DNA of 42,009 bases, taken from positions 1 through 42,009 of the forward strand of contig CALGPN010000056.1 of assembly GCA_937960435.1 (NCBI GenBank). Reading direction: 5' to 3'. The notes beneath the pieces were generated by a model that did not search any database, was not told the DNA's origin, and saw only the letters and a program-made list of their open reading frames with translations. The first letter of the stretch is position 1. Every line of letters starts with the position of its first letter. The DNA comes from an uncultured Desulfosoma sp. GTDB taxonomy: Bacteria; Desulfobacterota; Syntrophobacteria; Syntrophobacterales; DSM-9756. Both the position numbers and the translations under genes were made by a program. This document shows positions 3,480 through 15,286 of this stretch, piece after piece.

Positions 3480-4379
3480 ATGAAACGGGAAGACGCCCAC
3501 CGCATCCTCTTCGCCCTGCGCTTCTACCATGTGACGCTGTCCTTGGAAATCGACCGAGACCGTTGCATCCACTGCGATTTGTGTTCCTTGGCCTGTCCTC
3601 GCCAGGCCCTGCGCATCGAGGCGGACGAGCACGGCCTGCAGATCCACCTGGACTCCGGTCGATGCGTCTTCTGTGAAGTCTGCGCCTACGTGTGCCCTGT
3701 CTCGGCCGTCGAGCTGCGATATGAGGAACAGTCGAAGGAACTTCTTCGCCGATCGGGCGGCTTGCCACTCATCCCCGAAAAACTCCGGGTCGAAGTCGAT
3801 CGGTGTCCCCACCGCTGTGAACTCCTGGACTTCGAGGAAAACCACTGGTGTCGCCAGCAGCGCCGGCTCGTGGAAAACCGGGAAACCGAATGCCCCAAGT
3901 ATTGTTTTCGATGCGTGCAGAAATGCCCTCGAGGGGTCTACCGGGAAACATCCCAAGGGACGGTGCCCGACCCGGTCTCGTGTCTTCGGTGCGAGCAATG
4001 TCTGGACACGTGCCCTCAGGGCTCCATCCGCGTGACCCCTCTTTTTCGTGGCCGTGTGCTCCTGGATGCGGACCGATGCCCCGAGAATTGTTCCCTATGC
4101 CTTGACGTCTGCCCCGTAAAGGTGATCGAACGGCGAGAGGGTCGGGTCGTTTTGAGTCGCGATTCCTGCGCCTTGTGCGGTGCGTGCGCCAACGTGTGTG
4201 ACCACGACGCCATTCGAGTGGTGCGGGAGGCGGTTCTTGTGCCCGAAGGCGACACATGCGCTCTGTGGGTTCGCATCCGAGACGCCCTTACGGCAGGCCT
4301 ATGTCGCGAAGCCCCGGCCCGGTCCACTCCCCCGGTCACCGCCTCTCTACCATCCGCACAGACGGGGCCTCAGCCATGA
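3480..4379 (+). CDS. Polyferredoxin with about six [4Fe-4S] motifs (FwdF-like)
   Basis: A 299-residue soluble iron-sulfur protein and the first gene of the redox operon. Cysteine clusters of the CxxCxxCxxxC type or close variants are at residues 29-39, 62-72, 138-149, 168-178, 200-211 and 230-240. Extra cysteines at 109, 113 and 124 may complete another site. The 142-149 and 200-211 groups have the CxxxCxxCxxxC spacing seen in polyferredoxins. The role is electron wiring between flavin and Fe-S subunits, as FwdF does in the methanogen formylmethanofuran dehydrogenase complex, although FwdF carries eight clusters. I chose ATG 3480, after AGGGG, over a TTG at 3447. The stop overlaps the next start in ATGA, so the genes are translationally coupled. 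It has no signal peptide and is cytoplasmic. The Pro/Ser-rich last 25 residues are probably disordered. Confidence 0.88.
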   Translation: MKREDAHRILFALRFYHVTLSLEIDRDRCIHCDLCSLACPRQALRIEADEHGLQIHLDSGRCVFCEVCAYVCPVSAVELRYEEQSKELLRRSGGLPLIPEKLRVEVDRCPHRCELLDFEENHWCRQQRRLVENRETECPKYCFRCVQKCPRGVYRETSQGTVPDPVSCLRCEQCLDTCPQGSIRVTPLFRGRVLLDADRCPENCSLCLDVCPVKVIERREGRVVLSRDSCALCGACANVCDHDAIRVVREAVLVPEGDTCALWVRIRDALTAGLCREAPARSTPPVTASLPSAQTGPQP

Positions 4380-6517
4380 GCGGTATCGGCGTTTACATTT
4401 GCCACTGCGGCCAAAACATCGCGGGGGTGATTGACGTGCAGGCTTTGCGGGAGCGTGTGGCCTGCCGCAGTGAGGCCACGGTGGTCAAGACCAACGTCTT
4501 CTGTTGTTCCGAGCCGGGCCAGAAAGAGATCCAGGAAGACATTAAAGAACACGGCCTGGAGCGGGTCCTTGTGGCCGCATGTTCCCCCAGACTCCATGAG
4601 GTGACCTTTCGGCGAACCATCGCCCAAGCCGGCCTCAACCCCTACCTATTGGAAATGGCCAACATTCGGGAACAATGCTCATGGGTCCATCGCGGCCCGG
4701 AAGCTTTGGACAAAGCCCTGGATCTCATCCTCATGGGTTTGGCGCGGCTCGTCCGCTTGATTCCGCTCCAGGACCGAGTGGTTCCGGTGACGCGACGGGC
4801 CTTGGTCATCGGCGGCGGTGTGGGCGGTTTGAGCGCTGCCTTGGAACTGGCGGATTGCGGGGTCCCCGTGGTCCTGGTGGAAAAAAGCGTCCATCTCGGC
4901 GGCCAGGTCCTGCGATGGAACATCCCCGTTCCGAATGCCGATCCCTTGTCCTGTTTCGTGCGGCCTCTCATCACCCGGGCGATGCTCCACCCCCGCATTC
5001 GGGTGCTCGATGGCTCCACACTGGAAGACGTGCAGGGCACCATAGGTCGCTTTACGGCGTCGATTCAAGGAGCTGCGGGGTCGAGCACCGAAGAGGTGGG
5101 GGCGGTGGTGGTCGCCACCGGCTTCGAACCGTACAACCCGGATCTTTCCCGGTATCCCTTCGCCTCCCTGCCCCAGGTGATGACTTCGGTTCAGTTGGAA
5201 GAAATTTTCCGCAAGGAAAAGCCCGGACATCCCGCCACGCCCTCGGCGCTGGAAGGCGTCCGCACGGTCGCTTTTCTTCAGTGCGTCGGATCCCGTCTCG
5301 ATGAAGAATACCCTCATTGTTCGCGCATCTGCTGCGCCATCACATTAAAGCAGGCTCTGGCCTTACGGGCTCTCGGCATCGAAGTTCAGGTTTTTCATCG
5401 AGACATTCGCCTCTACGACAAGAACCAAGAAGAGGAGCTCTACGGCCGAGCCCGCCGGCTGGGCGTTCAATTTCATCGGGGGACTCTGAAGGCCGTGGAA
5501 CCGGATTCCGAAGGCGGTTTGAGGATTTGCTGGCACGATGAATTTCTTCAATCGACCTTGTGCGTTCCAACGGACCGATTGATCTGTGCGGTGGGGCTTC
5601 GGCCCAGGTCCGATGCGGAATCGTTGCGACGGGTCTTGCGTCTGGCGGTCAGTCAGGACGGGTATCTTCTGGAAGCGCACCCCAAGCTCCATCCCCTGGA
5701 GTCGGCCGTGGAAGGGGTTTTTCTGGCGGGGTCATGCCAAGGGCCGAAGGACGTCCGGGAAACGGTGGCCGCCTCTGTCGGGGCCGCCGCCAAGGCTTAC
5801 CAACTCCTGTGCAAAGATCACCTGCTCCTTGACGGCATGATCGCCGTAATCGATCGGGACCGATGCACGGGATGCGGCACTTGTGCGGCCGAATGCCCCT
5901 ACCAAGCCATCGCCCTTCGGGAAGACGAAAAGGGCACAACTAAAGCTCATGTGGAAACGGCGGCCTGCAAAGGCTGCGGCGTGTGCGCCGGATGTTGCCC
6001 GACGGAAGCCGCCGATCATTTAGGCTTTCCTTTGGAGGCGCTCAAAGCCATGGTAGATGCGGCGCTCGCGGAAGGCGCGGCCCAAAAGATCCTGGCCTTC
6101 TGCTGCCACTGGTGCGCCTACGCGGGCGCGGACGCGGCAGGGGTTTCGCGCATTCCTTATCCTGCGAACGTGCGCATCGTGCGCGTTCCGTGCTCAGGGC
6201 GCATCAGCGCTCGGCTGGTGTTGCACACTTTCAAGAAAGGGGCCAGCCGGGTTATGGTCGCCGGGTGCCATCCTCCGGGGGACTGCCATTACATTTCGGG
6301 CAATCTACGGTTCGAAAGCCGGGTCCCGCGGATTCGAAAACTTCTCTCAAAGAAAGGATACGACCCCGAACGGTTTTCGTATCACTGGGTCTCAGCCACC
6401 GAAGGGCCTCAGTTTCAGCACATCGTGCGTCGATTGGCCGAGGCGTTGGAATCCGAACAAAAAAAAACAGCGAGTTCGGCGCCCAACGCCGCGGCAGGTG
6501 ACGAGGGTGGTCGATGA
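4376..6517 (+). CDS. hdrA: HdrA-MvhD fusion flavoprotein (QmoB-like architecture)
   Basis: A 713-residue HdrA-family flavin/iron-sulfur protein. Residues 1-125 are the HdrA N-terminal cluster domain (CHCGQNIAGV at 9-18, FCCS at 42-45, AACSPRLHE, NIREQCSWVHR). Residues 140-480 are the thioredoxin-reductase-like FAD domain (GGGVGG at 146-151, LQCVGSR at 301-307). Residues 495-545 hold two [4Fe-4S] motifs. Residues about 570-690 are an MvhD (hydrogenase delta subunit) domain with FCCHWCAYAGAD, CSG and AGCHPPGDCHYISGN. This domain order is that of QmoB in sulfate reducers and of HdrA-MvhD fusions. MvhD domains normally dock HdrA to a hydrogenase or formate dehydrogenase, neither of which is encoded here. 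The segment after the FAD motif lacks the HdrA LDKTFPTLDC signature found in its neighbour. Start ATG 4376 overlaps the upstream stop; the 3' end overlaps the next gene by 4 bases. Confidence 0.92.
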   Translation: MSGIGVYICHCGQNIAGVIDVQALRERVACRSEATVVKTNVFCCSEPGQKEIQEDIKEHGLERVLVAACSPRLHEVTFRRTIAQAGLNPYLLEMANIREQCSWVHRGPEALDKALDLILMGLARLVRLIPLQDRVVPVTRRALVIGGGVGGLSAALELADCGVPVVLVEKSVHLGGQVLRWNIPVPNADPLSCFVRPLITRAMLHPRIRVLDGSTLEDVQGTIGRFTASIQGAAGSSTEEVGAVVVATGFEPYNPDLSRYPFASLPQVMTSVQLEEIFRKEKPGHPATPSALEGVRTVAFLQCVGSRLDEEYPHCSRICCAITLKQALALRALGIEVQVFHRDIRLYDKNQEEELYGRARRLGVQFHRGTLKAVEPDSEGGLRICWHDEFLQSTLCVPTDRLICAVGLRPRSDAESLRRVLRLAVSQDGYLLEAHPKLHPLESAVEGVFLAGSCQGPKDVRETVAASVGAAAKAYQLLCKDHLLLDGMIAVIDRDRCTGCGTCAAECPYQAIALREDEKGTTKAHVETAACKGCGVCAGCCPTEAADHLGFPLEALKAMVDAALAEGAAQKILAFCCHWCAYAGADAAGVSRIPYPANVRIVRVPCSGRISARLVLHTFKKGASRVMVAGCHPPGDCHYISGNLRFESRVPRIRKLLSKKGYDPERFSYHWVSATEGPQFQHIVRRLAEALESEQKKTASSAPNAAAGDEGGR

Positions 6518-8262
6518 CGACCAGACAAGGACACAAAACCTTGACACATGGCGCTCGCGTCCTCTTGTGCCGCTGTCCCGAACGGCACGGACGGCTCGAC
6601 CTCGATCGAACGGCCGAGGTTCTCTCCGAAGCGGGAATCGCCGTGCGTCTTGTGGATGCGTTATGCGACAGTAAAACTTTTCCAAAAGAAATGCTCGGAA
6701 CGGCCTTGGGCGGCGTGGAACGGCTCGTCATCGGCGCCTGTTCACCCTTTTTGATCGGCGAACTTCTCGAACAGGCCCTGCGGCACCGATGGGATCTGCG
6801 TTGGACGTTGGTGGACCTTCGGGACGTCCGCGACCCCGTCGCTTTGAGCGGCATCCTGAAAAGCCGTCTTCAGGTGTTGTCCCCCCCTTTTAAGAAAATG
6901 TGCGGGTTTCCTTCCGCCGACACCCCCCACAGGTCGCTGCGTCCCATCGGCGCCAAGGCTCCTCGGGGTGTCCTGGTCATCGGCGGCGGTGTGGGTGGCT
7001 GCCAGACGGCCTTGGACCTTGCCGGCATGGACATCCCGGTCACGCTCGTGGAAGCCGACGACTCCCTGGGCGGAAATATGGCCCGGTTGGACAAGACATT
7101 CCCCACCTTGGATTGTTCCATTTGCATCCTCGGCCCCCGGCTGGTGGACGCCGCCTCGCATCCCAACATCACGGTGCTCGCGTCGAGCCGCGTAAAGAGA
7201 ATCAGTGGACGACCGGGGCATTTCTTGGTGGAAGTGGAGCACCGCCCTCGTTACGTGGACATGACTCTGTGCTCCGGATGCGGCGCTTGCAGTGAAGTCT
7301 GTCCCGTGGTCGTCCCCAGTGCGTGGAACGCCGGTCTTCGCCCGCGAAAAGCTGTGGGCATCGTCTTCGAACAGGCCGTGCCTCTGAGGGCCGCCATTCA
7401 AAAAGAGTACTGCATCGAGTGCGGCCTGTGTGAGAAGGCCTGTGAAAGGAAGGCCATCCGCCTCGCCGAGGAACCTCGGGTGAGCCGGCTGCACACGGCG
7501 GCGGTGGTCCTTGCCGAGGGGGCCCGTCCTTTTCAGGCATCGCGTCTCGGATCCTATGGTTACGGCCGTTTTCCGGAAGTGATCACCAACCTGGAATTCG
7601 AACGGCTTGTGTGCGCCACAGGGCCGACGCAAGGATCCCTCATCACCCCCACCGGATCCCGACCTCGATCGGTGGCCTTCATCCAATGCGCCGGATCCCG
7701 CAACCGCCGCTTTCTGCCCTATTGTTCGGTCACCTGCTGCACAGCGAGCATCAAGGAGGCCATCCTTGTCCTGGAACACGAACCGGAAGCCGCCGTCACG
7801 ATCTTCTTTAACGACGTTCGAACCGCCGGGAAGAGTTTTGAAGGCCTCTTTCTGCGGGCGCGCGAGCGAGGCGTGCGTTTTGTGAAAGCCTTGCCGGATC
7901 GAGTGGAACGGGCGAAAGAAGGAGGGCGGCTTTCGGTGCATTACCGTTCCTTAGCCCATCGGGGAACCCAAACCCTGGAAGCGGATTTGGTGGTTTTGGC
8001 CGTAGGTGTCGAAGCGCCCAATGCCGATCCCCGGTGGGTCGTGCGCAGACCGCCCCAGAGGGATCGGTACGGATTCTACGAAGAGGCCTTCTTCTGGGGC
8101 GGACAGGTGGTCAGCACGGTCCCCGGTATTTTTCTTGTCGGGGGATGTCACGGTCCCAGGGACATCACCCAGACCGTCACCGAAGCCTCGGCTGCAGCAG
8201 CCCATGTGGCCAAATGGCTGCGGCGGGTCTCGTCTACCCCGGCCAAGAGCCTTGAGCCATGA
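6514..8262 (+). CDS. hdrA: HdrA-like FAD/iron-sulfur protein with altered N-terminal domain
   Basis: A 582-residue HdrA-family protein. Residues about 14-125 resemble the HdrA N-terminal domain (IGACSPFLIGELL), but the cluster-binding CHCG and FSCS motifs are lost (LLCRCP instead). Residues from 152 on are the FAD domain: VIGGGVGG, then GGNMARLDKTFPTLDC at 186-201, the HdrA signature missing from the previous gene. An insertion at 253-312 holds two [4Fe-4S] motifs (CSGCGACSEVCP, and CIECGLCEKAC). There are no C-terminal ferredoxin motifs. This is the QmoA-like or classical type, complementary to the QmoB-like neighbour, and the two probably form a pair. It overlaps genes on both sides by 4 bases (ATGA). 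It presumably passes electrons through FAD, and bifurcation is possible. The partner substrates are not evident from the sequence. Confidence 0.92.
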   Translation: MTTRQGHKTLTHGARVLLCRCPERHGRLDLDRTAEVLSEAGIAVRLVDALCDSKTFPKEMLGTALGGVERLVIGACSPFLIGELLEQALRHRWDLRWTLVDLRDVRDPVALSGILKSRLQVLSPPFKKMCGFPSADTPHRSLRPIGAKAPRGVLVIGGGVGGCQTALDLAGMDIPVTLVEADDSLGGNMARLDKTFPTLDCSICILGPRLVDAASHPNITVLASSRVKRISGRPGHFLVEVEHRPRYVDMTLCSGCGACSEVCPVVVPSAWNAGLRPRKAVGIVFEQAVPLRAAIQKEYCIECGLCEKACERKAIRLAEEPRVSRLHTAAVVLAEGARPFQASRLGSYGYGRFPEVITNLEFERLVCATGPTQGSLITPTGSRPRSVAFIQCAGSRNRRFLPYCSVTCCTASIKEAILVLEHEPEAAVTIFFNDVRTAGKSFEGLFLRARERGVRFVKALPDRVERAKEGGRLSVHYRSLAHRGTQTLEADLVVLAVGVEAPNADPRWVVRRPPQRDRYGFYEEAFFWGGQVVSTVPGIFLVGGCHGPRDITQTVTEASAAAAHVAKWLRRVSSTPAKSLEP

Positions 8263-9566
8263 CGCACAAAACCGTTACCTCCCTCGTGTGTTGCGGCTGC
8301 AGCTGCCTGTGCGACGACATCGATGCCGTCATTGACGAAGACCGCGTCGTGGAAACGGCCAACGCCTGTCGATGGGGGGCGGCCCGATTCCTGGGCCTGA
8401 AAAAGTTCAGCAGCGGTCTTCCTCGGGCGCGATGCCGAAGCAGTCGCCGGTGTCTGCACGATAAGCAGTGGAAGGATCTCCCCCTGGGCGAAGCGATCTC
8501 CCTGTGCCGAGACCACCTCTTTTTCGCGCGGCGTGTGGTGGCCTACGGCCTTGGCCAGATGTCCTCAGAGGCCCTGTGGATCCTGATGCAGGGACTTCGG
8601 GATTGGGAAACCCTTTGGATCCCCTCGGACGGTCCGATGCTGGAGGCCTTTGTGGAGGCCTATAAGCGGCAGGCTCCAGCCCTGACCCATCTGGAGTGCG
8701 TCCGGAATCAGGCCGATTTGGTGGTCTTCTGGGGTGCGAACCCGTTGCGGAGCACCCCTCGGCTTTTAAGCCGATACGGGCTTTTTCCTCGAGGGCGTTT
8801 CACCGAAAGAGGCGCCGAAGACCGGAAAGCGTGGACCGTGGACATTCAGGCGACGGAAATGGGGCGTGTGACGGAACTTGCGACAATCCCGTCCGATCAC
8901 GAAAAGGCCTGCGTTGAAGCCTTGCGCCGCGCCCACGCCGGAGGGCCCATGGAAGTTCCGGCGGGCTTGTCTGCCAAGCCATGGGCCACGCTGCTCAAAG
9001 ACGTGGAAAAGAGCCGATACCGCGTCTTTTTCTTCGGCCGAGGCCCTTTATATCATGAGCATGGGCCTGCCGTGCTGGAGGAACTGGCTTTGTGGGTCTC
9101 CGAACTCCGCGCTTCGGCTCCCACCTTTCTTGTGCCGATCCTGTGCGATTTTAACAGCATGGGGTTCCTGCAAATTTTCTTGAGCTGCGGCGGCTCGGCC
9201 AACCCCAAGTGGCGTCTTCAGGGGGACTTGCGTCGTTGGGAACCCCGACCCGGCGACGTCCTTCTGGCTCTCTCGGGGGACTGTTTTTGGTTTCTTACGG
9301 AAGACCAAAAGAACGCCGTGCGTCAACACCACATCCCCGTCTTGGCCCTGTCGGCTTATGAAACGACGACGACGGCCCATGCGGACGTAGTCCTGGCCGT
9401 GGGGCTTCAAGGATTGGACGTTTCGGGACAAGCCGCTCGGTTGGACGGAATGACCCTTTTTGCGGAAAAGCTCTGGGCCGACGCCGCGGCATCCGATGAG
9501 GCGGTCATCCGGAAGTTGTTTGACCCGCACGCAGAGATAGGAAACCCATGCGCGCCAAGACCTTGA
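8259..9566 (+). CDS. FwdB-like (formylmethanofuran dehydrogenase subunit B) protein lacking the metal-ligand Cys
   Basis: A 435-residue homologue of FwdB/FmdB, the Mo/W-bis-pterin subunit that reduces CO2 to formate in methanogens. The [4Fe-4S] site is intact: CGCSCLC (C-x2-C-x3-C within residues 11-18) followed by CDD and NACRWG, as in FwdB. Other family matches are VVFWGANPLRSTPR (FwdB: VVYWGCNPMHAHPR), GLFPRGRFTERG, FFFGRG and an AYETTTTAHADVVL stretch. At the active site, where FwdB reads SVCHGP with Cys as the tungsten ligand, this protein reads IPSDGP (Ser123, Asp124). FwdD, which completes the pterin site, is absent. I infer an Fe-S scaffold rather than a formate-forming enzyme, in the way bacterial FhcB is a non-redox FwdB relative; unlike FhcB, the cluster cysteines persist. 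It overlaps the previous gene by 4 bases and the next by 19. Confidence 0.87.
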   Translation: MTHKTVTSLVCCGCSCLCDDIDAVIDEDRVVETANACRWGAARFLGLKKFSSGLPRARCRSSRRCLHDKQWKDLPLGEAISLCRDHLFFARRVVAYGLGQMSSEALWILMQGLRDWETLWIPSDGPMLEAFVEAYKRQAPALTHLECVRNQADLVVFWGANPLRSTPRLLSRYGLFPRGRFTERGAEDRKAWTVDIQATEMGRVTELATIPSDHEKACVEALRRAHAGGPMEVPAGLSAKPWATLLKDVEKSRYRVFFFGRGPLYHEHGPAVLEELALWVSELRASAPTFLVPILCDFNSMGFLQIFLSCGGSANPKWRLQGDLRRWEPRPGDVLLALSGDCFWFLTEDQKNAVRQHHIPVLALSAYETTTTAHADVVLAVGLQGLDVSGQAARLDGMTLFAEKLWADAAASDEAVIRKLFDPHAEIGNPCAPRP

Positions 9567-10918
9567 TCTTCCAATCCGGCACCGTTTTCGACCCCGTCAC
9601 AGGGTGCGAAGGCTCGACGCGGGACATCGCCGTCTGCGGAGACAGGATTGTCGCGTTGGAACATGTTTCGGACGTGGACGAGATCGTGGACGCTTCGGGC
9701 ATGTTGGTTACGGCGGCGGCCGTCGATTGTGCAGCCCACGTGGCTTTCCCGGGGGTGTGGGCCCTTCGCGCCGCCGGACTTTTTCCCGACGGGGAGGTTC
9801 TCGTTCGCCGATATGCGGAAAGAGGCTTCGGCCATGTCCACGAAAGTTGGGCGACGCTTTTCGATTGCGGAACCGTCCAGGCCGAATGGGCGCGGATGCC
9901 GGGCCCGGATATCTCCGTCGGGCTGGGGCTTCCGCTCTATGATCTGACGACCTGGATGGAGGCCCAGGACGCCGCGACGGCGCACACCGCCCTGGAACAC
10001 CTCTGGGCCACTTTAGGAACTCATGGGTGTTATCTTCCCGAGCCGAGATTGCGCTTTCGGGATGATGTTTACAAGCATAGAGAAAAATCGGCGCAGGAGC
10101 TCGTGCCTTTTTTCCTCGAGGCGTGTCGGGGGGTCCCCGGACCCATCGTTCTTCCGGCCCGGTCGCTCCTTCGGGAAGATCTGGAGGTTCTGGCCCCCGG
10201 CATCCATGTGCAGCGTGCGGCCCTTCTTACCGAACAAGGGGCGGCGTGCCCCTTTTCCGTTCTGGCCGACGCCATAGGTTTCGGCATGAGCGCAGATCTG
10301 GGGCTGGCGTGGCCGGAAAAGGCCGTGGAACTCACATGGGTGCCGCCCGATGATGTCTCGGGAGGCCGGTTATGGGATGTGGGCTCTTTTCTCCTGCTCA
10401 AAGCCTCACCGGTCCCCGAAAAGGATTTTCGGGACGAAGAAGAAGCGGCGCGGTTCCTGGCGAAGGGACTTCCGGAAGGGTGGGCTTTTTCGTGCCGGCA
10501 GGCGAACTTGGCGCTTGTGCAGGACTGGGAAGGCTTGATCCGCGCGGTTTTGGAAGTGTGGGGCGTTCGGGAATGGTTCCTGGCGACACGCGCCCAAGCG
10601 GCAAGGGCTCTGGGATTTTCGGACCGAGGGCATCTCGCCCCGGGTGCTCGGGCCAATGTGGCGCTTTATCGAGAACCCGAGGAGGACACGGCGGCCGGGT
10701 GGGCCAAAGCCCTCAGCCGTTGTGAACGCCTCTACGTGGGCGGCCGGGAAATCTTCGATGGGAGACGTGGCCTTTTGGTGCCGCCGTCTCCTAGGGATCG
10801 ATGCGTCGGAACCGCGCCGGAGGGTTTCCGGGCGGAACTGTTCGCTCCGTTTTTGGACGGGATGAGCCTCAGACCGGAAACTCTGCGGCGCCTGGCGCCA
10901 CGGGCGGGGGAGCCTTAG
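9548..10918 (+). CDS. FwdA-like amidohydrolase-fold protein with degraded metal site
   Basis: A 456-residue relative of FwdA/FhcA, the formylmethanofuran amidohydrolase. The family is supported by its place directly after an fwdB-like gene (19-base overlap), by an N-terminal beta-rich segment (FQSGTVFDPVTG, GDRIVAL) and by the C-terminal amidohydrolase signature GHLAPGARANVALYREPEE, where FwdA has GHLGVGADANVAVYN. The FwdA metal ligands look mostly lost. The VDxHxH motif reads VDCAAHV (Ala62; only His64 kept). By eye, the regions that should carry the carboxylated lysine, the two later histidines and the aspartate have none of them. No zinc hydrolase activity is expected. With the FwdB-like change this suggests a structural pair. 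The divergence makes alignment in the middle uncertain, so a missed ligand is possible. Confidence 0.78.
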   Translation: MRAKTLIFQSGTVFDPVTGCEGSTRDIAVCGDRIVALEHVSDVDEIVDASGMLVTAAAVDCAAHVAFPGVWALRAAGLFPDGEVLVRRYAERGFGHVHESWATLFDCGTVQAEWARMPGPDISVGLGLPLYDLTTWMEAQDAATAHTALEHLWATLGTHGCYLPEPRLRFRDDVYKHREKSAQELVPFFLEACRGVPGPIVLPARSLLREDLEVLAPGIHVQRAALLTEQGAACPFSVLADAIGFGMSADLGLAWPEKAVELTWVPPDDVSGGRLWDVGSFLLLKASPVPEKDFRDEEEAARFLAKGLPEGWAFSCRQANLALVQDWEGLIRAVLEVWGVREWFLATRAQAARALGFSDRGHLAPGARANVALYREPEEDTAAGWAKALSRCERLYVGGREIFDGRRGLLVPPSPRDRCVGTAPEGFRAELFAPFLDGMSLRPETLRRLAPRAGEP

Positions 10919-10921
10919 GGC

Positions 10922-11371
10922 ATGATCCAGAAGATCCTCGAGCAGCTGCCCGGAACGGATTGTCAGATGTGCGGGATGAGTTGCGCCGACTTTGCGGCGT
11001 TTCTTCTTTCCGGAGACCTCAGCCCGCAGGAATGCCCGGTGCTGCAGGAAGATGCCTACGCCGACCGGAGGGAGGCTCTGGCGGCCCTTTTGGAAAGCCT
11101 CAAGGCACGTGCCAAGTCGGGCCATCTCATCGACCCGGACAAGTGCAACGGATGCGGGATTTGTCTCATTGTCTGTGAGTACAATGTCGCCAACGACCCG
11201 GAGAGCCGCCGCGGCAAAGGTCCCTCCAAGGATGCCAAAGTGGTGTTGCGAATCGTCAACGGCCGGGTGGTTTTGGCCGATGAAACCCTGTGCACCCGAT
11301 TGTTGCAGGCGGCGGACAAATGCAGCAAATGCCAGGACCACTGCCCCACTCAGGCCATTGTGCTCATCTGA
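10922..11371 (+). CDS. Small Fe-S protein: AcsC/RnfB-type [4Fe-4S] domain plus ferredoxin motifs
   Basis: A 149-residue cytoplasmic protein starting 3 bases after the FwdA-like stop. Residues 12-40 match the Fe-S domain found in RnfB and in the acetyl-CoA pathway corrinoid protein: C14-x2-C17-x3-C21 with C38 (TDCQMCGMSCADFAAF, then ECP). Residues 75-85 hold a standard CxxCxxCxxxC motif (CNGCGICLIVC). A last group, C124 with C134, C137 and C141 (CSKCQDHCP), looks like a ferredoxin site with a stretched first spacing. It probably carries up to three clusters and takes the place of the FwdG-type ferredoxin in this complex. It is the last gene before a REP-rich gap, so it may be the end of one transcription segment. 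Confidence 0.88.
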   Translation: MIQKILEQLPGTDCQMCGMSCADFAAFLLSGDLSPQECPVLQEDAYADRREALAALLESLKARAKSGHLIDPDKCNGCGICLIVCEYNVANDPESRRGKGPSKDAKVVLRIVNGRVVLADETLCTRLLQAADKCSKCQDHCPTQAIVLI

Positions 11372-11378
11372 AGCCCAT

Positions 11379-11408
11379 GGGGGCGGGCACAAGGCCCGCC
11401 CCTACGGG
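11379..11408 (-). repeat. REP-like palindrome family 2, copy A
   Basis: On the minus strand: foot GTAG, then arms GGGCGGGC and GCCCGCCC around loop CTTGT. It starts 8 bases after the upstream stop codon. Confidence 0.85.
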
Positions 11409-11474
11409 CGTAAGCCGCTTGCCGGGGCGGGACATGGAGGCGAACCTCAGGCAGGCGCCGCCCAGTCGGCGTCT

Positions 11475-11500
11475 GTAGGGGCGGGCCTAGTGCCCGCCCG
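11475..11500 (+). repeat. REP-like palindrome family 2, copy B (inverted)
   Basis: Same element in the opposite orientation, with loop CTAGT and a 5' GTAG foot. Inverted neighbouring copies are typical of bacterial interspersed mosaic elements. Confidence 0.85.
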
Positions 11501-11554
11501 GAAACGGGCGCCCCAAAACACTCCCGTGGATTGGCGGCGATGCGGGGAAGTCCT

Positions 11555-11584
11555 TACGGGCGGGCACAAGGCCCGCCCCTACGG
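11555..11584 (-). repeat. REP-like palindrome family 2, copy C
   Basis: Same orientation and loop as copy A, with foot GTAG. The three copies fill most of the 240-280 bases between the small Fe-S gene and the hdrC-like gene. Each folds to a strong GC hairpin, so they could attenuate transcription or protect mRNA ends inside the operon. Confidence 0.85.
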
Positions 11585-11649
11585 ACAGGAAACCGTCTGC
11601 CCCCATTGGGCTGATGATACGGAATAAACCACGCGCTAAAAACGAGGGC

Positions 11650-12147
11650 ATGGATGCAATGATGGAACACGCGTCTTCCGAAGTCCCCCTTCTTCAGGGC
11701 GATGCCGGTTTTGCAGAAGAGGTCATGGCCGGTCCCGGTGGGGACACTCTGCTTTTGTGTTATCAGTGCGGAACCTGCACGGGCTGCTGCCCTGTCGGGG
11801 CGGTGGACGAGGAGTTCAGCCCGGCCCAGATCATCCAGTGGATTCGGCTGGGCCTGCGCGAACGCGTCCTCGGATGGCCCAAAATCTGGCTCTGCCTGCA
11901 GTGCCATCGGTGTTCTTTTTCCTGCCCTCAAGGAGTGCGGTTTGCGGACATTAACGGCACCCTTCGATACCTGGCCGTTCGGGACGGTTTTTTCGACGCC
12001 TCGACCGCGGAAGAACTCGCCACCGCGGAAAAGCATCTCGCCGCGCTCCGCTGCGCCGTCCTGGAACGGACACTGCGCGGGGTTCCAGGCACGGCTCTTT
12101 CCATCCCCGAGCTCGTCCAGGACGCTCTGAGGGATCTCCATGGCTAG
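11650..12147 (+). CDS. hdrC: HdrC-like iron-sulfur protein
   Basis: A 165-residue soluble HdrC. Two [4Fe-4S] motifs are at residues 37-47 (CYQCGTCTGCCP) and 82-92 (CLQCHRCSFSCP), followed by the family's helical tail. In methanogens HdrC passes electrons from HdrA to the disulfide-reducing HdrB. No HdrB (CCG-domain protein) occurs in the window, so the partner must be another protein or a distant gene. The start is uncertain: in-frame ATGs lie at 11614, 11650, 11659 and 11662. A GAGGG at 11644-11648 fits 11659 best by spacing, and 11650 is a compromise. The gene begins after the REP patch and overlaps the next one by 8 bases. Confidence 0.88.
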   Translation: MDAMMEHASSEVPLLQGDAGFAEEVMAGPGGDTLLLCYQCGTCTGCCPVGAVDEEFSPAQIIQWIRLGLRERVLGWPKIWLCLQCHRCSFSCPQGVRFADINGTLRYLAVRDGFFDASTAEELATAEKHLAALRCAVLERTLRGVPGTALSIPELVQDALRDLHG

Positions 12148-15100
12148 CGGTCTTCAGCGAAACGAAAGCCCGCACGGAGAACCGCATCACCGGATCGTCG
12201 TGGTCGGCGGCGGTGTGGCCGGTATGCACGCGGCACTTCAGGCCGCCGATCTGGGACATCCTGTGGTGCTCTTGGAAAAAGATCTGGCCTTGGGCGGGCA
12301 CATGGCCCAGTTGGACAAGACTTACCCCACCCTGGACTGCTCCTTGTGCATTTTGTCGCCTCGCCTTCTCGCCTTCGGGAGGCACCCGAAGATTCGAGTG
12401 CTGGTGCGCGCCCGGCTGGAAAACGTGGTAGGGTGTGCTGGATCTTTTCTCTGCACCGTCACCCAGGAACCCGGTTTCGTCAACGCGGACAAGTGCATCG
12501 GATGCGGGACCTGCGCCCGGGCATGCCCGGCCGAAAGGCCCGATCCCTTCAACCTTGAGCTTGGGCCGACCAAGGCGATCCGAAGCCTTTACCCTCAAGC
12601 GTTTCCCTCAACCCATGCCATTGACCCCCAATACTGCCTCCATTTCCTCGGGGAGAGCTGCCGGCGGTGCGAGGAGGTCTGCCCCACGGGGGCCATAGAG
12701 TTCACCCAGAAGCCTTCCGTCATGGAATTGGAAGCGGGGGCCGTGATCCTGGCCGGGGGCTTCGATCTTCTCGACCGTCAGGATATCGCCCATCCCCACT
12801 GGCTCGATTGCCCCCATGTGCTGACCAATTTGGCCTTGGAACGATACTTGAGCGCCACAGGCCCAACCCGCGGCATATTGCATCCCCACGGCCTGGCCGC
12901 ACCGCCACAACATATCGTCTTCGCCCAGTGTGTGGGATCGCGGGATCCGGTCCACGGTGTCCCCTATTGTTCCGGGTACTGCTGCGCCGCGGCTCTGAAA
13001 CAAATCCAGCTCACGGCGGCTCTGCCCCACGTGGAACGCATCACCCTGTGCGCCACGGACGTTCGGGCCCACGGGAGGGACTGCGAACCTTTCTTTCGCC
13101 GCGTCCAGGCCATAGGCAAGGTCCGGCTTGTTCATGGAAGAGTAGCGGACATCGTGCCGCTGGGGACGGGCCGAGGCGTAGAAGTTCTGGCGTCGCACGG
13201 CGGCGCCCCTTGGCGCACGGAAGCCGACATGGTCGTCTTGGCCATGGGCATGCGCCCGTCTCGGGAGTGCACCCGGATCGCCGGGGTTCTTGGACTCCGG
13301 TCGGATCCCTTTGGGTACGTTTGCATCAAGGAACATCACACGGTCCACACATCTCGGGACGGGATCTATGCCTGCGGGGCCTTCATGGGGCCCAAAAGCA
13401 TCCCGTCCACGGTCCAGGAAGCGTACGCGGCGGCCATCGCTGCAAGCGCCCGTTTGACCGTCCGGCCTCAAGGGACCGAACGGGATATACCTTCAAAGCA
13501 GTCCCCAGAGCCGATCGAAACCGACGCTGAGGAAAACGCCCGACATCCCCGCCGGATCCCGGTTCCTGCGGCATCCGCTTCCGACCTTCGCATCGGCGTC
13601 TTTGTCTGTCGATGCGGCACCAATATCGCCGGCGTCATCGATACGGCCGAAGTCGCGCGATGGGTGAAAAAATTTCCCAATGTGACCTATGCCGCAGAAA
13701 ACCTCTTTTCCTGTTCCACGGACGCCACGGCGCGCATGGTTCGGATCATCCAGGAAAAGAAGCTCAACCGTGTCGTTGTGGCCGCGTGTTCGCCTCGGAG
13801 TCATCTTCCGATCTTTCAGGACGTCTTGGCCAAGGCGGGGCTCGAGCCTGGTTACATCCGCATGGTGAACATTCGGGAACAATGTTCCTGGGTCCATCGG
13901 GACAGGCCCCATGAGGCCCTCGTCAAGGCCAAAGCCCTGACGGCCGGAGCCCTTGCCCGTGTCCGCGCCGCTTTGGCCGCGCCGGCCATGAACATTCCCA
14001 TCACGCCTTCGGCCCTGGTCCTGGGCAGCAGCGTGGCCGCCTTGACGGCCGCCTTGCGCCTGGCGGACAACGGCATGGATGTTCTTGTGGTGGAATCCGG
14101 AGGCACCTTCGGCGGGCGGCTGTCTCAGGCTTCTTTCGCAGGGCCGGAAGGGAATGTAGATCGGTTATACCGTCATTTCCTCAGCCGCATTCGAACCCAA
14201 CCCAGGCTCCGCGTCCTGATGCACACCGAACTTGTGGAATGCCGGGGAGGCCTTGGGAATTTTCACCTGGAACTGCGGCGGCGCGATGCCGAGTCTCCAT
14301 CGGCTGTGGAGCGTTTCCAGGAAACCGTCGGGACCATTCTCATCGCCGTGGGGGCCGAAGTCTGGAAACCGGAAAATCTCTATGCCTACGGGCGAAGTCC
14401 TTTGGTGATGACCCAAGCCGAACTGGCAACGGCGCTGGGCCGGGACAGCGTGGACCTTTCTCGAGCCCGCTGTGTGCTCATGATCCAGTGTGTGGGGTCC
14501 CGAAACGACGAACGCCCTTACTGCAGCCGATCTTGCTGCCTGCAGGCGGTATCCCACGCGTTGGAACTCAAAAAGCGCTTCCCTCACTTGCGCGTCACCG
14601 TCGTGCACCGCGACATGCGCACCTACGGCTTGACGGAACTGATCTACCAAAAAGCACGGCAGGAAGGCATTCGCTTTCTGCGCTACGACGAAAAGCGGCC
14701 GCCCAGCGTGGAGCCCACTCGATTCGGCCGACGGTCCGCATTGGACATTCGATGGGACGAGCCCGACGCCGGCTGCACTTTTCACGAACGAGCCGATCTT
14801 CTGGTTCTCAGCACAGCCACGGTCCCGAGTCCGGAAAACCAGGACATCGCGTCGATCCTTCGCGTGCCGCTCAGCGCCGACGGCTTTTTCCTGGAAAAAC
14901 ACGTCAAACTGGCCCCCGTGGAAACGGCCGTGGAGGGCGTTTTCATCGCCGGTCAATGCCATTCTCCCAAGACCATCGCCGAAGCCTTGGTTCAAGGCGA
15001 TGCGGCGGCAGCCAAAATGCTGGCGGTCCTTCGGCAAGGGAGCGTGCGCCGCGCCGCGTTCACGGCACGCATCGATCCCGGACGGTGTTCACGATGCCTG

Positions 15101-15286
15101 AGCTGCGCGGAGGTGTGTCCCGTGCAGGCCATTCGCGTTCCCTCCTTTGGGCCGCTTCGCGTGGACCCGGGGGCCTGCCAAGGGTGCGGCCTGTGCGCCG
15201 CCGAATGCCCCGCGCGAGCCATCGATGTGGCGGGTGCTGAGGATGAGGGATTGCTTCAAGGGATGCCGTCCGTTTTTTGTGGTTGA
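12140..15286 (+). CDS. Tandem HdrA-HdrA fusion flavoprotein (1048 residues)
   Basis: Two HdrA modules in one chain. Module 1 (residues about 16-440) is the classical or QmoA-like type: GGGVAGM at 23-29, GGHMAQLDKTYPTLDC at 52-67, two [4Fe-4S] motifs in the insertion (C119-C129 and the 166-181 region), and no N-terminal cluster domain. A linker at about 443-480 (Pro/Glu/Ser/Ala-rich) joins module 2, which is the QmoB-like type: CRCGTNIAGVID at 490-501, FSCS at 523-526, AACSPRSH, NIREQCSWVHR, an FAD-like domain, MIQCVGSR, and two C-terminal ferredoxin motifs (CSRCLSCAEVCP and CQGCGLCAAECP). Module 2 lacks an MvhD tail, and its dinucleotide motif reads LGSSVAAL instead of GGGVGGL, so FAD binding there is questionable. 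The fusion mirrors, in reverse order, the separate genes at 4376 and 6514. It overlaps hdrC by 8 bases. Confidence 0.92.
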   Translation: MASGLQRNESPHGEPHHRIVVVGGGVAGMHAALQAADLGHPVVLLEKDLALGGHMAQLDKTYPTLDCSLCILSPRLLAFGRHPKIRVLVRARLENVVGCAGSFLCTVTQEPGFVNADKCIGCGTCARACPAERPDPFNLELGPTKAIRSLYPQAFPSTHAIDPQYCLHFLGESCRRCEEVCPTGAIEFTQKPSVMELEAGAVILAGGFDLLDRQDIAHPHWLDCPHVLTNLALERYLSATGPTRGILHPHGLAAPPQHIVFAQCVGSRDPVHGVPYCSGYCCAAALKQIQLTAALPHVERITLCATDVRAHGRDCEPFFRRVQAIGKVRLVHGRVADIVPLGTGRGVEVLASHGGAPWRTEADMVVLAMGMRPSRECTRIAGVLGLRSDPFGYVCIKEHHTVHTSRDGIYACGAFMGPKSIPSTVQEAYAAAIAASARLTVRPQGTERDIPSKQSPEPIETDAEENARHPRRIPVPAASASDLRIGVFVCRCGTNIAGVIDTAEVARWVKKFPNVTYAAENLFSCSTDATARMVRIIQEKKLNRVVVAACSPRSHLPIFQDVLAKAGLEPGYIRMVNIREQCSWVHRDRPHEALVKAKALTAGALARVRAALAAPAMNIPITPSALVLGSSVAALTAALRLADNGMDVLVVESGGTFGGRLSQASFAGPEGNVDRLYRHFLSRIRTQPRLRVLMHTELVECRGGLGNFHLELRRRDAESPSAVERFQETVGTILIAVGAEVWKPENLYAYGRSPLVMTQAELATALGRDSVDLSRARCVLMIQCVGSRNDERPYCSRSCCLQAVSHALELKKRFPHLRVTVVHRDMRTYGLTELIYQKARQEGIRFLRYDEKRPPSVEPTRFGRRSALDIRWDEPDAGCTFHERADLLVLSTATVPSPENQDIASILRVPLSADGFFLEKHVKLAPVETAVEGVFIAGQCHSPKTIAEALVQGDAAAAKMLAVLRQGSVRRAAFTARIDPGRCSRCLSCAEVCPVQAIRVPSFGPLRVDPGACQGCGLCAAECPARAIDVAGAEDEGLLQGMPSVFCG

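Follow-up and report, generated by a model that had tools for sequence, protein, structure and literature searches.

A bacterial operon of HdrA, HdrC and MvhD modules with formylmethanofuran dehydrogenase homologues that lack the known catalytic residues

We analysed a 42,009-nucleotide stretch of DNA (the window) from an uncultured Desulfosoma sp. (assembly GCA_937960435.1, contig CALGPN010000056.1), which is contig C56 in a draft genome of 3.0 Mb and 95% completeness (G000). An open reading frame (ORF) listing and family scans placed eight tightly packed + strand ORFs at 3480-15286, encoding, in this order, a polyferredoxin, HdrA-ferredoxin-MvhD, HdrA, FwdB-like, FwdA-like, small Fe-S, HdrC and HdrA-HdrA proteins. 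These genes and most of these families had been proposed in an initial annotation made from the letters alone; all eight ORFs were in place, and the family scans agreed with it. The genes are as follows (aa, amino acids).

3480..4379, + strand: orf1, FwdF-like polyferredoxin, 299 aa, 29 Cys, 10 CxxC; best NCBIfam row FwdF, E 6e-26, under its cut-off
4376..6517, + strand: orf2, HdrA with N-terminal domain and without inserted ferredoxin, plus a C-terminal ferredoxin and fused MvhD; HdrA2 707 bits, FlpD 155 bits
6514..8262, + strand: orf3, HdrA with inserted ferredoxin, Glu356, Lys409 and Cys197 retained; 447 bits
8259..9566, + strand: orf4, FwdB-like, 435 aa; TIGR03129 E 1e-53, 182 bits, cut-off 328
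9548..10918, + strand: orf5, FwdA-like, 456 aa; TIGR03121 E 1e-17, matching only at the ends
10922..11371, + strand: orf6, FwdG-like ferredoxin with an extra N-terminal Fe-S domain (PF04060 type), 149 aa, 12 Cys; fold and profile matches
11614..12147, + strand: orf7, HdrC-like, also like the N-terminal part of QmoC, 177 aa; E 1e-19 and 5e-21; PDB 8rvv_C, E 5e-20
12140..15286, + strand: orf8, tandem HdrA-HdrA; 773 bits

Since ATGA overlaps joined orf1 to orf2, orf2 to orf3 and orf3 to orf4, the start of orf2 was most likely the ATG at 4376, the ORF itself opening at 4256. The start of orf1 was common to L060 (L labels denote fetched genome stretches, or loci, and G labels genomes). Starts and stops had been described as mostly overlapping, which held for these three junctions but not for orf6 and orf7, parted by 242 bases. 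G000 gave a strong dsrA match and contained AcsB, and sat was located in the window; the earlier designation "probable sulfate reducer" therefore fits this host.

Orf4 matched solved FwdB chains with E values from 4e-34 to 1e-20 (PDB 9sfi_Q, E 4e-34; 8rja_B, E 1e-33). Its site residues were tabulated from an alignment of 94 FwdB proteins, comprising 26 rows of a bacterial clade, 59 others and nine intermediate or unplaced rows (L044, L055, L066, L067, L094, L095, L096, L102 and L141). Cys118, together with His119 and Arg288, which we take to be active-site residues, was gone in all 26 clade rows, the window having Met, Leu and Leu at these positions. All three were present in the 59 other rows, which are mostly archaeal and whose bacterial members include L036, L147 and L204. 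All 26 clade rows retained the four Cys that serve as ligands of the N-terminal [4Fe-4S] cluster. The His two residues after Arg288, found in 59/59 live FwdB rows, was replaced by Asp in every clade row, within a strict D-F-N motif. In a tree of 69 FwdB rows, the 26 clade members and the long-branch L066 were split from the other 42 with support of 100/97, and the 26 alone with 81/74. Among the intermediate or unplaced rows, the Candidatus Borrarchaeum proteins (L094, L095) retained Cys118 and His119, with Ile for Arg288, and the Candidatus Alkanophaga/Alkanophagales homologues (L096:2516-3910, L141:2101-3315) retained Cys118, with Gln for His119 and Val for Arg288.

The metal ligands of orf5 were also altered: His57 was replaced by Ala, Asp385 by Arg and the invariant Lys (presumably Lys178) by Tyr, while His59 was retained. 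This Lys was gone in 23 of 27 module-linked FwdA rows, from which the bacterial L036 and L204, with intact Fwd, were excluded; the four rows retaining Lys, His57, His59 and Asp385 (L038, L043, L081, L116) belong to f42, one of the genome groups defined below. Because FwdB is dead in f42 while FwdA may still be live there, the residues suggest that catalytic loss in the Fwd part went stepwise. An AlphaFold model of orf5 (predicted local distance difference test score, pLDDT, 79.7; predicted template modelling score, pTM, 0.83) gave as top Foldseek matches 8rja_A (E 6e-24) and 5t5i_A (E 4e-23), the first row other than FwdA/FhcA standing at 7e-14. VIA-align gave Z scores of 29.2-30.5 to FhcA/FwdA, with unrelated amidohydrolases close behind (Z 27.7). 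By its predicted structure, orf5 retains the FwdA fold. No relatives of orf5 were found in viral contigs. Judged by their residues, both FwdB and FwdA here are without known catalytic sites, in agreement with the initial description of the Fwd part as stripped of catalytic residues.

These losses could also be explained if the FwdB/FwdA pocket had been re-specialised for another cofactor or substrate and formed a new chemical site. The replacement of an invariant His by an invariant Asp in the strict D-F-N motif, the retained Trp-Gly-x-Asn-Pro and Arg-x-Asp signatures, and the FwdA metal ligands kept in four f42 rows with a dead FwdB all speak for this explanation. We nevertheless consider it rather unlikely, as the operon holds no FwdD-like domain to complete a pterin site, the FwdA Lys is gone in most rows, and the conservation may be structural.

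The remaining Fwd homologues are predicted electron carriers. Orf1 matched PDB chains 7bkb_K (subunit F, E 1e-28) and 5t5i_F (FwdF, E 3e-24). Orf6 had been noted before as a small Fe-S protein, which it is, but its likeness to FwdG had been missed. Its model (pLDDT 82.3, pTM 0.56) matched FwdG of 5t5i_G by Foldseek at E 4e-6 with 35% identity, the template modelling score being 0.88 on FwdG and 0.48 on orf6, and a profile of 18 orf6 relatives placed FwdG first (E 1e-15, residues 71-152). Over its first 50-60 residues, orf6 matched an Fe-S domain that occurs in RnfB (E 3e-9) and in the large subunit of CFeSP (E 1e-7). All 12 Cys were invariant in the 18 rows, including two archaeal proteins of Candidatus Borrarchaeum, whose orf6-type genes adjoin FwdB; the opposite strand there carries HdrA-MvhD and a polyferredoxin. 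The identification of the small Fe-S protein as FwdG-like with an extra N-terminal Fe-S domain is new here. The Candidatus Borrarchaeum loci (L094:4126-11293, L095:4091-11293) comprise FwdA, the polyferredoxin, HdrA-MvhD, the orf6-type FwdG-like protein and FwdB.

The operon thus has homologues of formylmethanofuran dehydrogenase subunits A, B, F and G, with C and D not among the eight. The initial annotation had raised the matter of further Hdr and Fwd genes elsewhere in the genome. Ftr was absent from G000 (present in 1/39 genomes of the order), and FwdC gave no match over the cut-off in G000, the only one (1.2e-4) lying inside a 783-aa frame. FwdD was not found among the eight operon proteins, no genome-wide search for it having been made. 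A second FwdB with an intact site was not found in G000; the other three matches were weak, and the one listed (63 bits) was a 699-aa molybdopterin oxidoreductase frame. An HdrB-like gene was recovered, on contig C15, in a separate HdrC-HdrB-HdrA-HdrA cluster. A true formylmethanofuran dehydrogenase or Fhc function was rejected on the loss of active-site residues, the lack of FwdC over the cut-off and the lack of Ftr in the genome. Intact sites in both FwdB and FwdA were seen in a relative from the same order (9% contamination), where these two genes and a FwdD-like one are joined, further along, by Ftr and FwdC (L204:993-4317 and G409:C387:33117-34876); judged by the sites, this is a real formylmethanofuran dehydrogenase or Fhc set.

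The Hdr part comprises four HdrA modules; we located their residues in alignments with 5odc/8rvu and checked them again against three archaeal HdrA proteins. Glu356 and Lys409 have been named as bifurcation-associated HdrA residues (PMC12054007), and Cys197 has been named in PMC9012536. Orf2, which matched 8rvu_a (E 8e-125) and MvhD of 5odc_D (E 3e-38), retains Glu356 and Lys409; its Cys197 column is likewise occupied by Cys, within an altered context. The first half of orf8 has the inserted ferredoxin, Cys197, Glu356 and Lys409 and is without the N-terminal domain; the second half has the N-terminal domain and a C-terminal ferredoxin, is without Cys197, and carries Ala for Glu356 and Ser for Lys409. 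Both bifurcation-associated residues were therefore found in three of the four modules, the exception being the second half of orf8. Across relatives, the window included, they were retained in 8/8 orf2 proteins, 6/6 orf3 proteins and 11/11 first halves of orf8; the double loss in the second half was seen in 4/4 genomes of the window's own group and in 0/7 relatives of the f10/f54 type. Complementarity between the orf8 halves in Cys197 and the N-terminal domain held in 11/11 orf8 proteins. We claim this pattern for orf8 alone, because 6/8 orf2 proteins (four f1 genomes, L038 and L072), the window's included, have a Cys at that column. The fused HdrA of anaerobic methanotrophic archaea (ANME), in the available descriptions, has the same complementary pattern in the opposite order. 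A Pfam scan found no HdrB (CCG domain) among the eight operon proteins and, on orf7, only Fe-S domains and no membrane domain. The separate cluster on C15 (L195:1082-10128) encodes HdrC-like and HdrB-like proteins and two HdrA proteins, of 1502 aa (including a Fer4_20/Pyr_redox_2 part) and 977 aa.

The distribution of the module was examined in 395 genomes of the phylum, with a full-length orf6 homologue of at least 176 bits as the marker. Such homologues occurred at 32 places in 30 genomes, each with a FwdB-like match within about 2.5 kb (32/32). By genome group (family), there were four module genomes in f1, the window's own group, nine in f10, four in f54, six in f42, four in f16, two in f5 and one in f75; they include the cultured species Desulfacinum hydrothermale (G187), of the same family as the window genome, and Desulfobacca acetoxidans (G214). 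The order FwdB-FwdA-FwdG-HdrC was found in 17/17 module genomes of f1, f10 and f54, which supports the earlier view of Hdr and Fwd families combined in a bacterial genome and shows that the gene order is conserved. An HdrA gene was present on the same fetched stretch in 20/30 module genomes; of the other ten, five lie on contigs ending nearby (G191, G373, G164, G041, G086) and five had none over 13-20 kb (G012, G050, G144, G077, G182). In G334 (f1), polyferredoxin-HdrA/MvhD-HdrA-FwdB was followed by the contig end. D. acetoxidans has FwdB-FwdA-FwdG-HdrC-HdrAA, the polyferredoxin and HdrA-MvhD not being on its fetched stretches L051 and L202. In many f10 and f54 versions, a peptidylprolyl isomerase-like gene (by eye) stands between FwdB and FwdA (e.g., L056:10648-11181) and a DUF3795 protein beside HdrA-HdrA (e.g., L056:16674-17096). 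No recurrent donor gene was found beside the module, the identified recurrent genes being these two and, in some f42, f5 and f75 loci, CdhA/CdhB-like genes.

Rough pairwise ratios of nonsynonymous to synonymous substitution rates (dN/dS) among four f1 genomes were 0.03-0.38 over the eight genes, with 8/48 pairs undefined, indicating purifying selection on these genes. This bears on the view that the Fwd genes are what is left of a formylmethanofuran dehydrogenase that was acquired horizontally, is decaying and has no present function. Both catalytic sites, FwdC and Ftr are indeed gone, as would be expected of a remnant, but all frames are open, the same set occurs in several families, and a pseudogene remnant was rejected on the cluster cysteines retained in 26/26 FwdB rows and on dN/dS; we regard this view as highly improbable.

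Three clues, none of them strong, point to the acetyl-CoA pathway. First, two of six f42 loci (L039 and L041, which also hold HdrA genes), one f5 locus and the f75 locus have CdhA/CdhB-like CO dehydrogenase (CODH) genes beside the FwdB-FwdG module. Second, AcsB was found in 28/30 module genomes and in 241/365 others, counts that are uncorrected for ancestry. Third, the module is present in D. acetoxidans, which is reported to oxidise acetate via the CO-dehydrogenase pathway and not to use H2/CO2 or formate (PMC3156406). Divergent CdhA/CdhB-like genes were observed near FwdB- and FwdG-like genes at L044:498-12365, L055:6632-13823, L066:8162-19749, L039:8819-15851 and L041:8510-15480. L044, L055 and L066 also encode CooC-like and MoxR-like ATPases; L044 and L055 have a FwdD-like gene as well, and no CdhA lies on the L055 stretch. 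These Cdh-Fwd loci are a separate locus type in Desulfobacterota.

The closest comparison is with the methanogen Hdr-Fwd/Fmd supercomplex (PDB 7bkb, 9sw6). The families HdrA, HdrC, MvhD, FwdA, FwdB, FwdF and FwdG are common to both, and the Methanoculleus locus L137 has a similar order (polyferredoxin, HdrC, HdrA, MvhD, FwdB, FwdA), but here the FwdB and FwdA catalytic residues are gone, FwdC, FwdD and HdrB are not in the locus, the HdrA modules number four, and an extra Fe-S domain is present on FwdG. Lyu, Yu and Lu (2025, PMC12054007) describe archaeal type II HdrA-HdrBC-MvhD-FdhB-'Molybdop' clusters in which the molybdopterin protein is non-catalytic. These clusters likewise join a soluble Hdr cluster to a FwdB/FdhA-family protein without Cys118, proposed there to be structural; they differ in their archaeal hosts and in having FdhB (F420) and HdrB, and the available part of that text does not list FwdA, FwdF or FwdG among their members. 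An FrhB/FdhB (F420) domain was not found among the eight operon proteins. In FhcABCD (6s6y), the FwdB homologue is described as a non-catalytic scaffold (PMC10100899) and the FwdA fold is shared, the comparison here being judged by residues; FhcA and FhcD are catalytic there, whereas our FwdA is dead by its residues and Ftr is absent from G000. The same source reports that FwdB homologues passed from archaea to bacteria and that its FwdB set included sequences without the Mo/W-binding Cys. MetFV-HdrABC-MvhD of Moorella, with a fused double HdrA, and Flx-Hdr of sulfate reducers are, in the available descriptions, also bacterial soluble Hdr complexes attached to a pathway; unlike them, this operon has no MetF, NADH module or HdrB and does have Fwd parts. 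No published account of this bacterial operon was found in the open-licence literature, judged on titles and the starts of abstracts. The operon is a variant of the Hdr-Fwd kind and not a new kind, its archaeal parallel with a dead molybdopterin protein being already published.

We propose, with a probability of about 0.5, that the operon encodes a cytoplasmic flavin/Fe-S assembly, bifurcating or confurcating, in which the Fwd proteins serve as scaffold and wire and whose most likely job is ferredoxin coupling in the acetyl-CoA pathway. The locus is probably derived from an archaeal Hdr-Fwd locus, and we infer that its products form one complex. The four HdrA modules would provide the flavin adenine dinucleotide (FAD) sites, three with bifurcation-associated residues, the orf8 halves forming an apparent built-in unequal pair. 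Electrons would probably enter or leave the Hdr branches through MvhD of orf2 and HdrC of orf7, and orf1 (FwdF-like), orf6 (FwdG-like) and the [4Fe-4S] cluster of orf4 (FwdB-like) may constitute a low-potential wire. Because the catalytic sites are gone and the FwdB and FwdG cluster ligands are retained, electron transfer and holding the complex together are the most likely roles of the Fwd part; FwdB and FwdA, without known chemistry, would then act as scaffold and cluster carrier, as do NuoG and FhcB. The ferredoxin of the acetyl-CoA pathway would be coupled to a middle- and a higher-potential carrier, in a direction that would follow the growth mode, and the acceptor, HdrB-like or other, would be supplied in trans.

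Several observations weigh against this proposal. The window's operon encodes no donor or acceptor enzyme and has neither HdrB nor a CODH gene. The AcsB association is confounded by ancestry. No CdhA-like gene was found in the f42 stretches L038, L040, L042 and L043, nor in any f1, f10, f54 or f16 stretch, and the best TIGR00314 (CdhA) match in the window's order scored 43.6 bits versus 452-538 for the CdhA-like neighbours. The Cys197 complementarity is true of orf8 and not of the window's orf2 and orf3. No Hdr gene was found on the stretches of f16 (four genomes, one on a 6 kb contig), f5 (two, one on a 3 kb contig) and f75 (one), and therefore the Fwd genes may work without Hdr there. The module is also patchy, full-length orf6 being absent from G162 (f1), which belongs to the genus of D. 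hydrothermale, from G278, G298 and G318 (f10) and from G392 (f54). Finally, synonymous sites were near saturation in the f1 dN/dS comparison.

The initial annotation had suggested electron bifurcation with H2 or formate as a partner. The bifurcation part is consistent with Glu356 and Lys409 in three HdrA modules, but the evidence speaks against a strict need for H2 or formate as donor. A complex dependent on H2, formate or NADH, to whose MvhD a hydrogenase or formate dehydrogenase would dock in trans, is an unlikely alternative to ferredoxin coupling. Methanogen MvhD receives electrons from hydrogenase or formate dehydrogenase, and MvhD is fused to HdrA in orf2; PDB 7bkb contains MvhD and formate dehydrogenase chains; and G000, by a lookup in that genome alone, encodes NiFe hydrogenases, as well as a molybdopterin oxidoreductase with an Fe4S4 domain near a CODH-like frame. 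These genes lie outside the operon, however, and none was prominent by eye among the families common to at least three groups. Moreover, D. acetoxidans has the module although it is reported to use neither H2/CO2 nor formate.

A link to sulfate reduction was weighed as well, in the form of a soluble Qmo-like complex in which HdrA-MvhD, HdrA and HdrC exchange electrons with APS reductase or DsrC. QmoABC consists of HdrA, HdrA-MvhD and HdrC-type subunits, a composition seen here too in a sulfate reducer; the best NCBIfam row of orf7 was QmoC (E 5e-21), sat lies in the window, and a strong dsrA match (E 1e-159 or better) was found in 22/23 module genomes of f1, f10, f54 and f42, though in none of the four of f16. 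Unlike QmoC, orf7 with its 177 aa has no HdrE-like membrane part, and the operon adds Fwd parts, which such a complex leaves unexplained, and extra HdrA modules. Most dsrA-bearing genomes, dsrA being over the cut-off in 188/395 sampled genomes overall, are without the module, and the f5 and f75 module genomes, 3/3 with dsrA, have no Hdr gene on the stretch. Given these dsrA counts, a tie of the module to sulfate reduction is also possible; the Qmo-like complex in particular we consider quite improbable.

A bolder version of the ferredoxin-coupling proposal is that a gutted formylmethanofuran dehydrogenase, its pocket refitted with the invariant Asp-Phe-Asn, plugs CO dehydrogenase into the multi-HdrA core through a FwdF-FwdG-FwdB wire. 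We hold this to be doubtful; if true, acetate-oxidising sulfate reducers would recover energy from CO-level electrons. To our knowledge, low-potential electron handling in complete-oxidising sulfate reducers with the acetyl-CoA pathway is poorly understood, and the locus gives eight candidate proteins for it, with homologous sets in D. hydrothermale and D. acetoxidans. It suggests that an archaeal CO2-fixing enzyme became a non-catalytic electron-transfer part in bacteria, and annotations of formylmethanofuran dehydrogenase subunits A and B in this bacterial clade should not count as evidence for methanofuran chemistry.

The gap between orf6 and orf7 holds one further feature, which arose in none of 100 shuffles.

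11381..11578: 21-base inverted-repeat element, near-palindromic and GC-rich, in three copies (11381-11401, + strand; 11479-11499, - strand; 11558-11578, + strand)

No further copy was found elsewhere in the window at up to three mismatches. On the 5' side of the operon, a gene with a PPDK_N domain lies on the opposite strand, and on the 3' side a class II fructose bisphosphatase ORF opens within the end of orf8. Elsewhere in the genome, on contig C18 (L196:8026-14675), a NiFe hydrogenase gene with an in-frame TGA in one match, a possible selenoprotein, stands beside FrhB/FdhB-like and HdrA-like proteins.

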